From assembly GCF_000422845.1 (NCBI RefSeq), contig NZ_AUGV01000016.1, positions 62,001 to 126,000 of the forward strand: a DNA stretch of 64,000 bases. Direction: 5' to 3'. Below the pieces are notes generated by a model that was not told the origin of the DNA, did no database searches, and saw nothing but the letters and a program-made list of their open reading frames with translations. A program made the translations under genes and the position numbers. This DNA is from Oceanobacter kriegii DSM 6294. Lineage in GTDB: Bacteria; Pseudomonadota; Gammaproteobacteria; Pseudomonadales; Oceanobacteraceae. This document shows, piece after piece, positions 16,541 to 45,724 of the stretch; within the stretch, counting starts at the first letter, position 1, and each line of letters starts with the position of its first letter.

Positions 16541-16805
16541 GGGCACATCTATCTAATCCGGTGCCCGCTCTGGGGTTCTGGATGATTGTGAATCCCGAAG
16601 CCAGTTTGCAGGCCTGACGGGTCAAGTCAAAAACTGGCGACACAGAGTCGGAATCATCCATCAGCCCCCGAAGGGCGCGGGTTGCCGCTTCACATAGCTG
16701 CGTTAGATAACTTGAAAAGGACACGTCATTTCACTGTGTTATCCGCCTTGCTCTGAGAACCGGCAACACTCGCGCAGAGCTGTGCAGGATTAAATAGATG
16801 TTCCC
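16541..16805 (+). mobile_element. MITE-like structured element, copy 1 (265 bp, divergent)
   Basis: Ends GGGCACATCTATCTAATCC and the inverted GGATTAAATAGATGTTCCC match at 17 of 19 positions, with TA directly outside each end (16539-16540 and 16806-16807). The length equals that of the copies at 29092 and 34270, though the terminal repeats differ. It shares the block TTTGCAGGCCTGACGGGTCA with the other copies. Stems seen: TGGATGATT (16579-16587) with AATCATCCA (16652-16660); GCCAGTTT (16600-16607) with AAACTGGC (16631-16638); GATAAC with GTTATC further right. No open frame of note; a non-autonomous element. Confidence 0.8.
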
Positions 16806-16827
16806 TATAACATCGCTTTTGTACCAA

Positions 16828-16882
16828 CCGTCACAGACAGTTCGTGTAGGCCATCACACCGTATCTGTGTAAACCGTCACAG
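16828..16882 (+). repeat. CCRTCACA direct repeats at exact 23-bp spacing
   Basis: CCGTCACAG (16828), CCATCACAC (16851) and CCGTCACAG (16874) start 23 bp apart, about two helical turns, with GTGTAGG and GTGTAAA closing the first two units. They lie between the mobile element and the ANR boxes, roughly 240-290 bp upstream of the inferred ccoM transcription start. Possible iteron-like regulator sites; the protein is unknown. Confidence 0.5.
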
Positions 16883-17020
16883 TGCGGGGATGGTTTGGCT
16901 GCTGAGCCCGTCAGCCTTGAACCTTCAAGCATCGGGCACTGCCTGAGTCTGTCAGGGCTTGATAAAACCGGGCCAGTTTCTCTTTCTGGAACCCGTCGAT
17001 CGTTCACCAATCACACTCTT

Positions 17021-17034
17021 TTGATGTGTATCAA
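17021..17034. promoter_or_regulatory. ANR/FNR box (distal)
   Basis: TTGATGTGTATCAA is an exact TTGAT-N4-ATCAA site. It lies 51 bp upstream of the second box, at about -92.5 relative to the inferred start. Confidence 0.75.
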
Positions 17035-17071
17035 CAGAGCTTCGCCAATTCGTTTCAGCGCCAGAATCCGT

Positions 17072-17112
17072 TTGATGTACGTCAATGGCAGCCGCTCGCG
17101 CGCTGCTATTGT
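17072..17112 (+). promoter_or_regulatory. ANR/FNR-activated promoter of the CcoM-like gene
   Basis: TTGATGTACGTCAA (17072-17085) differs from the ANR/FNR consensus at one base. A -10-like TATTGT at 17107-17112 is centred 31 bp downstream, the spacing of a class II activated promoter with the box near -41.5. This predicts transcription from about 17120 under low oxygen. Confidence 0.65.
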
Positions 17113-17168
17113 TAATTCATCGACACGGCCAACACCCTCAAACAACAAAAGACGAGAGGTAACCCACT

Positions 17169-17288
17169 ATGTTTATGGATGAAGTAGTTCTTTCCGGATT
17201 GATCATTGTCGGCCTTACCTGCGCCTTTTTTGGCGGTGTTTATATGGCCGTTCGTAAGGATATCCGCAAGCACGGCACAGGCGAATAA
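17169..17288 (+). CDS. ccoM: CcoM-like single-helix subunit of cbb3 cytochrome oxidase
   Basis: 39 residues. The layout is MFMDEVVLSG, then one membrane helix (LIIVGLTCAFFGGVYMAV), then a short basic tail (RKDIRKHGTGE). It resembles CcoM, the small stabilising subunit found in the Pseudomonas stutzeri cbb3 oxidase (similar MF-D-VV start, VGL...AFF helix and KD tail); this comparison is from memory. CcoM is known to be encoded away from the cco operon. Upstream are two ANR/FNR boxes, as expected for a microaerobic oxidase component, and an intrinsic terminator follows, so it is a one-gene unit. Confidence 0.65.
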   Translation: MFMDEVVLSGLIIVGLTCAFFGGVYMAVRKDIRKHGTGE

Positions 17289-17335
17289 GCCGCTGTTCTT
17301 GCCAACCTGTTTTCTGCGCTGAGTACCCTTGCCAC

Positions 17336-17369
17336 GGGCCTGACCAGTTTGGTCATGGCCCTTTTTTTT
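17336..17369 (+). terminator. Intrinsic terminator of the CcoM-like gene
   Basis: GGGCC-TGACC-AGTTT-GGTCA-TGGCCC forms a long GC-rich stem followed by eight T residues, 47 bp past the stop codon. Confidence 0.88.
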
Positions 17370-42824: not shown

Positions 42825-42871
42825 GCTGACTTTTATCAGTCAGTAGACGCCGTTATTTAAAAAATAACGAC

Positions 42872-42907
42872 AAAGCGCCCTGGCTGTTCGCAGTTGGGGC
42901 GTTTTTG
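42872..42907 (+). terminator. Terminator after rpmA
   Basis: AAAGCGCCC and GGGGCGTTTTT pair across a loop containing CTGTTCGCAG, with a following T tract. It would reduce expression of obgE relative to the ribosomal proteins. Confidence 0.75.
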
Positions 42908-42927
42908 TTTGTTTTCAGGGGTTGTAA

Positions 42928-44124
42928 ATGAAGTTCGTTGACGAAGCACGAATCTCTGTTGAAGCGGGAAAAGGCGGCAATGGCTGTTGTAGCTTTCGTC
43001 GCGAGAAATTTATCCCGAAGGGTGGTCCCGACGGTGGTGATGGTGGTGACGGTGGTTCCGTCTACCTCGAAGCCGACGAGAACATCAACACATTGATCGA
43101 TTTCCGCTACACCCGTCGTTACCGTGCTCAAAACGGTGAGGCGGGTTCCAGCCGTAACTGTACGGGGGCCAAGGGTTCAGACGTTGTTCTGAAGGTGCCG
43201 GTTGGTACCACGGCGATTGATGAAGATACCGGTGAAACACTGGGTGACCTGACTGAAATTGGTCAGCGCCTGATGGTGGCTCATGGCGGTTACCACGGTT
43301 TGGGTAACACCCGTTATAAATCGAGTGTGAACCAGGCACCACGCCAAACCAAGCCTGGTCAGCCGGGCGAGTCCCGTAACCTGAAGCTGGAGCTGAAGGT
43401 GTTGGCGGATGTTGGCCTGTTGGGTTTGCCAAATGCTGGTAAGTCGACCTTTATCCGTGCGGTATCGGCAGCCAAGCCAAAAGTGGCGGATTACCCGTTC
43501 ACAACGCTGGTGCCAAACCTGGGTGTGGTATCCATCGAACAGCATCGCTCGTTTGTGGTGGCTGACATTCCGGGATTGATTCCGGGCGCATCTGAGGGTG
43601 CCGGTCTTGGTGTTCGCTTCCTCAAGCATCTGGTGCGTACTCATTTGATGCTGCACATTGTCGATATGGCGCCGCTGGATGATGCCGATCCGGCAGACTG
43701 TGTTACTGCGATTGCCGATGAGCTGGAGCACTTCTCTCCGGCGTTGGGTCAGCGTGACCGCTGGTTGGTGTTGAACAAGCTGGATATGCTGCCAGAAGAC
43801 GAGCGCGAAGAAGCCTGTCAGAAAATCATCGACAAGCTGGGCTGGGAAGGCCCTGTGTACCGGATTTCTGCACTCAACCGTGAAGGCACCTTCCAATTGA
43901 GCTGTGATATTCAGGAATACATCGAAGAGCGCCGTGAGCGTGCGCTGGAAGATGAAGAGTTTGCCCAGCAGTTGCTGGACGAGCGCGAGCAGGTGGAAGT
44001 CGAGGCCCGCGAGCGTATTGAAGAACTGGAAGAAATTCGCCGTGCCGAGCGCGCTGCGCGTCGCGCTGCGTCGGAAGACGATGACGACGACTACGATGTC
44101 GAAGTAGTATACGTTCAGGAATGA
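42928..44124 (+). CDS. obgE: GTPase ObgE/CgtA
   Basis: 398 residues. The glycine-rich Obg fold ([36 protein letters not shown]) is followed by a GTPase domain with GLPNAGKST (G1), [16 protein letters not shown] (G3) and LNKLDML (G4). The tail is very acidic ([16 protein letters not shown]), as in other gammaproteobacteria. Obg acts in 50S assembly and the stringent response. Confidence 0.98.
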
Positions 44125-44141
44125 TTTCAGCAGTTTTGTGC

Positions 44142-44166
44142 ATCAGCCCCGCATTGCGGGGCTGAT
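44142..44166 (+). terminator. Terminator-like hairpin after obgE
   Basis: ATCAGCCCCGC-ATT-GCGGGGCTGAT is an 11-bp stem, then TGCTTTT. Strong stem with a short T run. Confidence 0.7.
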
Positions 44167-44261
44167 TGCTTTTGGCTAAACCGCCGGTATTTACCGGTCC
44201 GCTAACCGGCCTGACATGACAGGCTTTCCCGCAATCAGGGTTTTTGGGAACTCACCATTCA

Positions 44262-45407
44262 ATGACATCCGCAGTCGATCAGTACCGACAAAACAGACAG
44301 CGCCTTGCCAGAAAAAAGCGCTGGGTGATCAAAATTGGCAGTGCCTTGCTGACCAATGATGGCCAGGGATTGAATATCGAAGGTATGCAATCCTGGGTCG
44401 ATCAGATGGCACAGTTGCAGCAGCAGGGGCATGAAGTCGTCCTGGTTTCATCCGGCTCCATTGCCGCTGGTATGACCAAGCTGGGATGGCCCGAACGACC
44501 GGATGAGGTGCATCAGTTACAGGCCGCTGCGGCGGTTGGTCAGATGGGGCTGGTGCAGGCCTACGAAACCGCGTTTGGCAAGCATCAGCGAGCCACTGCG
44601 CAAGTGTTGCTGACTCATGATGACCTCAGCAATCGTACCCGTTACCTGAATGCCCGTGGCACGCTGCGTACCTTGATGCGTTACGGTGTGGTGCCAATCG
44701 TCAACGAAAACGACACCGTGGTGACCGACGAAATCTGTTTTGGTGACAACGACACTCTGGGTGCTTTGGTTGCCAATCTGATTGAAGCCGATGTGCTGGT
44801 GATTCTGACCGATCAGGACGGCTTGTTTACCGCTGATCCGCGTTCCAACCCTGACGCCGAGTTGGTGTTGGAAGGGCGAGCTTCTGATCCGCAATACGCT
44901 GATATGGCTGGCGGTGGTGGTCGTTTGGGTCGTGGTGGTATGACGACCAAGATCCGTGCGGCGACGCTGGCTGCGCGCTCTGGAGCGGATACCGTGATTG
45001 TTGGTGGTCGCATTGATGATGTGCTGACCCGGCTGCGCAACGGTGAGCTGATTGGCACCTTGATGCTGGCGGACCAGCACCCGGTGGCTGCGCGCAAACA
45101 GTGGATTGCTGGTCACTTGCAGGTCCGTGGTGAGTTGATTCTGGATGATGGCGCAGTGCGAGCGTTGAAAGATGGCCACAAGAGTCTGTTGCCGATTGGT
45201 GTGACGGCGGTGAATGGTCGTTTTGAACGTGGTGAGGTGGTTGCCTGTCGCGATACCCGTGGCAAGCTGATTGCCAAGGGGTTGGTGAACTATTCCCGCT
45301 CCGAGGCCGTCAAAATCCTCCGCACGCCGAGCTCTGGTCTGGAAGCTGCATTGGGTGTGGTGTCTGAGCCGGAAATGATCCATCGTGATAACCTGGTGAT
45401 GATGTAG
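44262..45407 (+). CDS. proB: Glutamate 5-kinase
   Basis: 381 residues from the ATG at 44262; a TTG at 44244 is less likely. The amino-acid kinase domain has [42 protein letters not shown] and [10 protein letters not shown]; the C-terminal PUA domain includes [15 protein letters not shown]. It phosphorylates glutamate for proline synthesis and is usually feedback-inhibited by proline. A mobile element begins 4 bp after its stop codon. Confidence 0.97.
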
Positions 45408-45411
45408 GTTA

Positions 45412-45724
45412 GGGACCCTCTGAATAACTCAGTGCCCGCTCTGGATGACGGGGCGACGCTGAATCACGAAGCTGATTTGCAGGCCTGACGGGTCAAGTCA
45501 AAAATCAGCGACACAGAGTCAGCAATGCCCTGTCTTCCCCGTTGGGCGCGGCCTGCAGGCCGCCATAACGGCGTTGGCGAATTTGGAAAGGACTGGCCAT
45601 TACACTGCATTCGCCGCCTTGTTCTGACACCCTGTAGGACTCGCGCACGACTGCATGGATGCAGGAGGTAGGGCGAAGCAGGAAGCCAGAGCCGAGAGCT
45701 GTGTAGAGTTATTCAGAGGGTCCC
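45412..45724 (+). mobile_element. MITE-like structured element, copy 5 (313 bp)
   Basis: Ends GGGACCCTCTGAATAACTC and GAGTTATTCAGAGGGTCCC, perfect 19-bp inverted repeats with TA outside both (45410-45411, 45725-45726). The inner stem is GCTGATTT (45471-45478) with AAATCAGC (45502-45509). Extra length is a 48-bp insert near the right end that includes GACTGCATGGATGCAGGAG, partly shared with the copy at 30747. Orientation as for the copy at 16541. Confidence 0.87.

Follow-up and report, generated by a model that had tools for sequence, protein, structure and literature searches.

The 64,000-nucleotide stretch of Oceanobacter kriegii DSM 6294 analysed here (the window), which is part of contig C11 of a 4.5-Mb draft genome (G000), holds five copies, four full and one truncated, of a gene-less element of 265-313 bp, whose body is made of two inverted copies of one hairpin motif of about 65 nt. 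The elements are non-autonomous transposons of the IS5 family (miniature inverted-repeat transposable elements, MITEs). Selection keeps the hairpin of their left arm on the top strand and that of their right arm on the bottom strand, and their outer ends changed more than once on a tree of the cores. Such a conserved body with varied ends suggests that the folded body helps multiplication in a manner not yet described. The explanation that we favour, with a probability of about one half, is a selfish core with a conserved structure that, while single-stranded, furthers its own propagation through a host or helper factor, and that swaps its ends.

Structure, covariation and strand preference of the body

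Each motif has the plan CAAGGCG-stem-apical hairpin-stem-CAACRC, and the two motifs are separated by 41-44 nt that include a CCC-GNA-GGG mini-hairpin, the loop of which was GNA in 39 of the 51 matched elements (55 examined); loops of the GNA type are very stable in DNA. The covariance models R1 (24 rows) and R2 (23 rows) describe the left and the right arm, and a model R3 the single motif; the 41-44 nt spacing was found in all 20 adjacent inverted pairs matched by R3, at 19 distinct places. Read on the opposite strand, the right arm repeats the left one: a sequence-only profile of 51 left arms matched 25 of 47 reverse-complemented right arms, at a modest best score of 13.1 bits, and none of the 47 forward, 47 reversed or 47 shuffled right arms, nor any of the 51 reverse-complemented left arms. 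The copies in the window and their arms are located as follows.

16541..16805, plus strand: full element of the second subfamily (ends GGGCACATCTATCTAATCC), 265 bp, with R1 and R2 matches
16559..16679, plus strand: left arm (motif selected on this strand) and central mini-hairpin, R1, 128.9 bits
16676..16787, plus strand: right arm (motif selected on the opposite strand, as read from GT and AC counts), R2, 117.9 bits
29092..29356, minus strand: full element of the first subfamily (ends AGGACCCTCTGAATAACTC), 265 bp
29218..29338, minus strand: left arm of the 29092 copy, R1, 130 bits
29110..29221, minus strand: right arm of the 29092 copy, R2, 131 bits
30747..30906, minus strand: truncated copy, 160 bp, in which one end can be recognised and the right arm survives as a diverged remnant, the left arm being absent
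34270..34534, minus strand: full element of the first subfamily, 265 bp, with end and loop-core matches
34396..34516, minus strand: left arm of the 34270 copy, R1, 127.9 bits
34288..34399, minus strand: right arm of the 34270 copy, R2, 126.2 bits
45412..45724, plus strand: full element of the first subfamily, 313 bp, a long form with an addition of about 48 bp close to its right end
45430..45550, plus strand: left arm of the 45412 copy, R1, 126.7 bits
45547..45664, plus strand: right arm of the 45412 copy, R2, 101.9 bits

A preliminary description of these copies had proposed that their stems change as pairs while the loops stay fixed, and strong covariation over many copies bore out the first part. 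The left-arm test comprised 131 rows (122 distinct), including 38 weaker rows that were mostly matches on the other strand, in an alignment fitted to the covariance model and thus leaning towards structure. Pairing was found in 94.2% of the cells, compared with 64.9% in shuffled alignments and 34-44% with slid partners; 1247 cells showed a double change, compared with 327 in shuffles, and a double change occurred in 38 of 38 pairs (32.8 in shuffles). None of 500 shuffles reached the pairing or double-change values. RNAalifold, run on alignments made with MAFFT only, reported compensatory change in 25 of 38 and 20 of 32 pairs. The fixed loops stood in part: distant relatives vary in small inner palindromes of the loops, although the pairs there are still kept.

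Because a GT mismatch on one strand is an AC mismatch on the other, the GT:AC ratio tells which strand is folded. Counts were taken on the best 93 of 131 rows (A3) and 76 of 93 rows (A4), which at 85% identity became 44 and 37. The left-arm helices held 68 GT and 5 AC, whereas the mid and inner helices of the right arm held 3 GT and 25 AC, a contrast with a P value of 1e-15, and the MAFFT-only alignments gave GT:AC ratios of 27:10 (left arm), 2:15 (right mid and inner helices) and 4:4 (right outer helix). The stem formed by the transposon ends, expected to be strand-neutral if only double-stranded ends matter, was used as control and showed no strand preference (GT 36, AC 34; 83 elements). These strand-wise mismatches indicate that each single strand carries one working hairpin.

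Mobility, exchange of ends and distribution

All five places listed in the preliminary description proved real, but the copy at 30747 is only a truncated piece, in which one end was recognised within 3 mismatches, the right-arm loop core is diverged (3 mismatches) and no match to R1 or R2 was obtained at E 0.01. Three copies (16541, 29092 and 34270) are exactly 265 bp long, as had been stated. The copy at 16541, singled out earlier for having different ends on the same plan, belongs to the second subfamily (ends like GGGGACATCTATTTAATCC), hence it is no oddity; this subfamily occupies 23 places in the O. kriegii genome, two of them without one end. Matches in the window numbered 7 for the end sequence with up to 3 mismatches (0.02 expected), 4 for the left loop core (0.10 expected) and 5 for the right loop core (0.02 expected). 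Ends and copies recur genome-wide, as shown by 134 matches to the first-subfamily end sequence with up to 2 mismatches and 0 for the reversed control. At least 40 places had 234-343 aligned bases (40 of 133 candidates scored), and both subfamilies together amount to at least 60 copies of a short, non-coding sequence with inverted ends, as in MITEs.

Flanking 4-mers were identical at 52 of 119 distinct first-subfamily sites, compared with 16.8 expected from re-paired flanks, and 41 of these 52 were YTAR (CTAG 22, TTAA 15, TTAG 2, CTAA 2), which is the 4-bp target of IS5. For the second subfamily the figures were 24 of 38 sites and 1.7 expected, with the target CTNNAG. These counts omit loci L111-L182 and elements without a 12-bp flank; no target duplication longer than 4 bp was found in the flank comparison of both subfamilies. 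The TA described earlier as lying outside the ends does recur, but it is really the middle of the 4-bp target duplication (mostly YTAR in the first subfamily; within CTNNAG in the second). An empty site was recovered as well: both flanks of one G002 copy were matched in G003 with 57 bp between them, compared with 326 in G002, and G003 aligns to the joined G002 flanks without the element, the junction bases being too diverged to read the duplication. The gap at this site is shorter by 279 bp in G005 and by 293 bp in G000; in G001 it is only 58 bp shorter, which was taken as saying nothing.

Thirty-eight loci (some overlapping) carrying PF13340 or PF01609 genes in nine genomes were scanned, and in four of them (L194, L195, L208 and L211) matching inverted ends flank the transposase gene on both sides. 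L194 (G013) has the gene between matching ends over 1158 bp, L195 (G205; 1167 bp) has a broken gene and one end identical to the elements of G205, and L208 and L211 (G002; 1268 and 1272 bp) have ends of the second-subfamily type, while L196 (G012) has one matching end only. L194 and L211 encode transposases of the IS5 family (NF033581, 334 and 259 bits; cut-off 140). Ends paired 1-2 kb apart were also sought: G013, G395 and G205 yielded nothing beyond single ends and pairs no more than about 290 bp from each other, and G002 yielded none; the partner elements came instead via PF01609. The O. kriegii genome has one PF13340 gene, with no matching ends nearby. A transposase with matching ends, the search for which had been proposed in the preliminary description, was found in related genomes but not in the draft genome of O. 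kriegii itself. The ends, the 4-bp duplications, the empty site and these partner elements together identify the family as IS5-family MITEs.

The change of outer ends was read from a quick tree of the cores of 75 of 81 elements, with end labels taken from a loose pattern; the label of row L071 was wrong (corrected), and others may be. Element L103, with ends AGCAGGCTGTTGAAAAACC, fell inside a five-row clade (SH-aLRT 100) in which the other four have first-type ends, and, once L071 was corrected, the second-subfamily ends formed one clade within the first type (support 99). Ends varied likewise among the traced elements, including GGGAACCTCTGAATAATTC, GGGGACATCTATTTAATCC, AGCAGGCTGTTGAAAAACC, GGGAAGGTCTGCACGAATC, GGAAACACTGATTTATTC and GGGCCTGTTGACCTTTGG. 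In one lineage (L095, L099, L103, L105 and L106) the right arm seems to be inverted in its inner part, with CGCCTTG on the 5' rather than the 3' side. The copies L333-L341 of G665, a complete genome, fall into two core subfamilies with about 61-68% identity between and 87-95% within them, and their ends are mostly similar. G002, G003, G005 and G006 had at least 12 matches to about half the element (some 150 bp, at query positions of about 783-933 or 894-1053), suggesting hybrid or half-deleted copies.

R1 was matched in 57 of 390 genomes and 32 of 142 genera of the order, in 26 of 369 genomes of the class (the O. kriegii genome being counted in both) and in 7 of 398 genomes of the phylum, including that genome, the other six all being from its own class. 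Pattern matches were found in records of Oceanobacter, Thalassolituus, Bacterioplanes, Parathalassolituus and Thalassobium, and G003, G004, G005, G006, G009 and G012 are relatives within the genus or family of O. kriegii. Ends were traced for 45 elements at loci of the order and class samples; the length was 257-288 bp in 40 of these and shorter, 176-240 bp, in five. Neither Rfam 15, at gathering and loose thresholds, for any element searched, nor plasmids, phages and viral contigs, with one query each, gave a match, and in the literature, from which subscription journals were mostly outside the search, no paper was recognised as describing this element family. Readings of the motif as an IHF site or a CsrA site were weighed by eye and did not fit. 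A hairpin at positions 1501-1584 of L382 (G007) has the same CAAGGCGC / GCAACAC internal loop with a longer apical stem (GGAGCGTATTGTAATACGTGAGC), and possibly belongs to another repeat family with a common internal loop.

None of 32 copies in the O. kriegii genome lies inside a gene called by our own simple gene caller, though some overlap a gene end by up to 11 bp; in the window, the 45412 copy starts 5 positions past the final base of the gene ending at 45407. Nineteen copies stand between tandem genes, 8 between convergent and 4 between divergent ones, and 1 at a contig end, which fits the intergenic bases of the window (62% tandem, 22% convergent, 16% divergent). Ten of the 19 copies in tandem contexts run in the gene sense and nine against it, so that no preference for gene context or orientation was seen in these 32 copies. 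A replication-strand bias was looked at by eye only; it was weak and is not claimed. Around the truncated copy (about 30690-30925) the sequence AAAAAACGCCAG(T/C)AGCTG is present three times, and the element perhaps landed in a duplicated terminator-like stretch. Other features near the copies are a match to the Rfam PhrS small RNA at 17134-17316 on the plus strand (40.2 bits, gathering 37), about 330 bp past the 16541 element, and a tandem pair of adjoining alkaline phosphatase genes on the minus strand (30981-32555 and 32557-34218).

Selection on the fold and competing explanations

Variants were analysed at 106 of 113 loci in six sets of copies, the pattern having first been seen on 25 copies. 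Private variants showed no clear avoidance of stems (235 per 995 paired sites, 90 per 351 unpaired sites), whereas those common to at least two copies numbered 96 at paired and 82 at unpaired sites (Fisher P 5e-5 versus private); divergent subfamily copies contribute private yet compensated changes. The difference suggests that copies decay almost neutrally once inserted and that selection acts on the lineages still multiplying, and it supports the view that the fold is selected during copy multiplication and not on each inserted copy. A host function of single copies is disfavoured by the private variants not sparing the stems. The preliminary description had proposed selection on a folded RNA or single-stranded DNA (ssDNA) and not only passive mobility, a claim that held in part: covariation and strand-wise wobble tolerance back a single-strand fold, but the arms on opposite strands speak against one RNA holding both, and the selection seems to work through mobility, not beside it.

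The outer 16-20 bp or so are the recognition ends of an IS5-type transposase that makes the 4-bp target duplication, and the wobble mismatches show that either strand carries one working hairpin near its 5' end regardless of the direction of insertion. According to the favoured explanation, the element would become single-stranded, most likely as ssDNA at the replication fork or during transposition, and a host or helper factor recognising the hairpin would raise the chance of a new copy. Such a module could outlive changes of transposase partner, since only its outer ends would need to change. DNA is slightly favoured over RNA as the folded strand, and the GNA loop (39/51), exceptionally stable in DNA, leans the same way. 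A wider form of this explanation is offered tentatively: a Gammaproteobacteria-wide selfish module may further its copying by IS5-type transposases through ssDNA hairpins that are strand-specific, one on each strand, and may survive by end exchange, as a parasite of DDE transposons that needs a single-stranded signal.

Several observations weigh against a selfish core of this kind. The share of pair-keeping changes is alike in private (111/234) and shared (44/96) variants; in set G000B, the smallest with 5 copies, private variants do avoid stems (6 per 159 versus 12 per 65), and stem avoidance by shared variants is only slight in G004 and G013. As for the strands, the right outer helix is neutral (GT 12, AC 9), and two right apical pairs, which are uncertain and partly palindromic, run counter to the trend (GT 17, AC 1). 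No PF01609 transposase was matched in the draft genome G000, nor in G665, G555, G742, G412, G314 and G276; the partner in these genomes may have been lost, missed or of another family. Ten of 30 loci had one R3 match only, comprising shorter elements (L357, L376 and L381), a palindrome of 110 bp (L374), elements that measure about 270 bp and have a diverged other arm (L365, L377 and L380) and loci whose ends could not be placed (L367, L373 and L382); as single-motif elements occur, two motifs are not strictly needed.

The tolerance of GT pairs and the strength of the folds would be expected of RNA no less than of DNA, and the hairpins could act in read-through transcripts, where they would stabilise, cut or anti-terminate host RNA, so that insertions would be less harmful and would persist. 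One working motif per strand would also suit random orientation (10 in sense and 9 against in tandem contexts). We regard this as doubtful, given that transcribed contexts are not preferred (19/31 tandem, 8/31 convergent, 4/31 divergent), that the fold overall is not spared by private mutations, that the loops are GNA and not GNRA, and that two copies scanned held no terminator-like site, the sole promoter-like site lying outside the element. The covariation is typical of structured RNA too, as would be expected of a functional non-coding RNA gene (riboswitch, ribozyme or small RNA) borne by a transposon, but such a gene is quite improbable here. Arms selected on opposite strands make one RNA holding both working arms unlikely, and a single non-coding RNA would require all helices to be selected on one strand, which was not observed; moreover, private mutations do not spare the fold, Rfam had no match to the elements searched, and at least 60 copies exist, with no context preference in the 32 examined.

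It is improbable, too, that these are ordinary MITEs in which the pairing is due solely to gene conversion or palindrome dynamics that recopy inverted repeats, the loops being inherited and the arms unselected. Stable folds are general in bacterial MITEs, as described in parts of PMC10969869, and the end stem has no strand preference, but recopying within a stem cannot yield opposite preferences in the two arms (68:5 versus 3:25, P 1e-15), nor can it keep one internal-loop sequence and the 41-44 nt spacing class-wide. A REPIN-like core moved by a Y1 (RAYT-type) transposase, with IS5 ends acquired later, would share the same plan of two inverted, intergenic motifs that form a hairpin in ssDNA or mRNA and undergo compensatory changes (PMC3116915, in part). 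This origin is very improbable, as the 4-bp duplications and IS5 ends show movement of the DDE type, and a GTAG-type tag was not noticed in the motif alignment.

Relation to known systems

DDE transposons are regarded as needing double-stranded ends only, and the bodies of bacterial MITEs are treated as filler; here, instead, the body is conserved class-wide and its fold is kept strand by strand, while the transposase ends change. If the favoured explanation is true, it would suggest a single-stranded step or a helper in the multiplication of IS5-type MITEs, which is directly testable, and a new structured family is available for annotation. Integron attC sites, too, are folded single strands in which unpaired positions are conserved and stems vary; in the present elements, however, the motifs conserved at the 5' and 3' sides are not complementary, unlike the R boxes of attC.

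The elements resemble IS5-family and other bacterial MITEs, as these are described in parts of PMC10969869, in being short and gene-less, with inverted ends, a target duplication, many intergenic copies and a helper elsewhere, and they are MITEs by every tested feature except that the helper was not found in the draft genome of O. kriegii. They differ from known MITEs in a double-hairpin body common class-wide to elements with different ends, and in strand-specific covariation. Stable MITE folds are described in sections of PMC10969869 and PMC5896051, and the main text of the former contains neither 'compensatory' nor 'covari'. QMITE1 and QMITE2 of Coxiella burnetii, too, are MITEs that have inverted ends and are predicted to fold stably; some QMITEs make small RNAs, and small QMITE2 forms resemble REPs (PMC5896051, in part); compared by this description only, they have other sizes and duplications (7-11 nt in QMITE2). 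REPINs, according to passages of PMC3116915, share with the present elements two inverted hairpin-forming motifs, compensatory changes, an intergenic location and selection on the doublet. Two inverted motifs at a fixed spacing were found here as well, though with one motif match in 10 of 30 loci, and the elements were not filed as REPINs because the defining RAYT link lay outside the comparison. REPINs are linked to RAYTs and built of short REP motifs, whereas these elements combine IS5 ends and 4-bp duplications with a motif of about 65 nt that has an internal loop.

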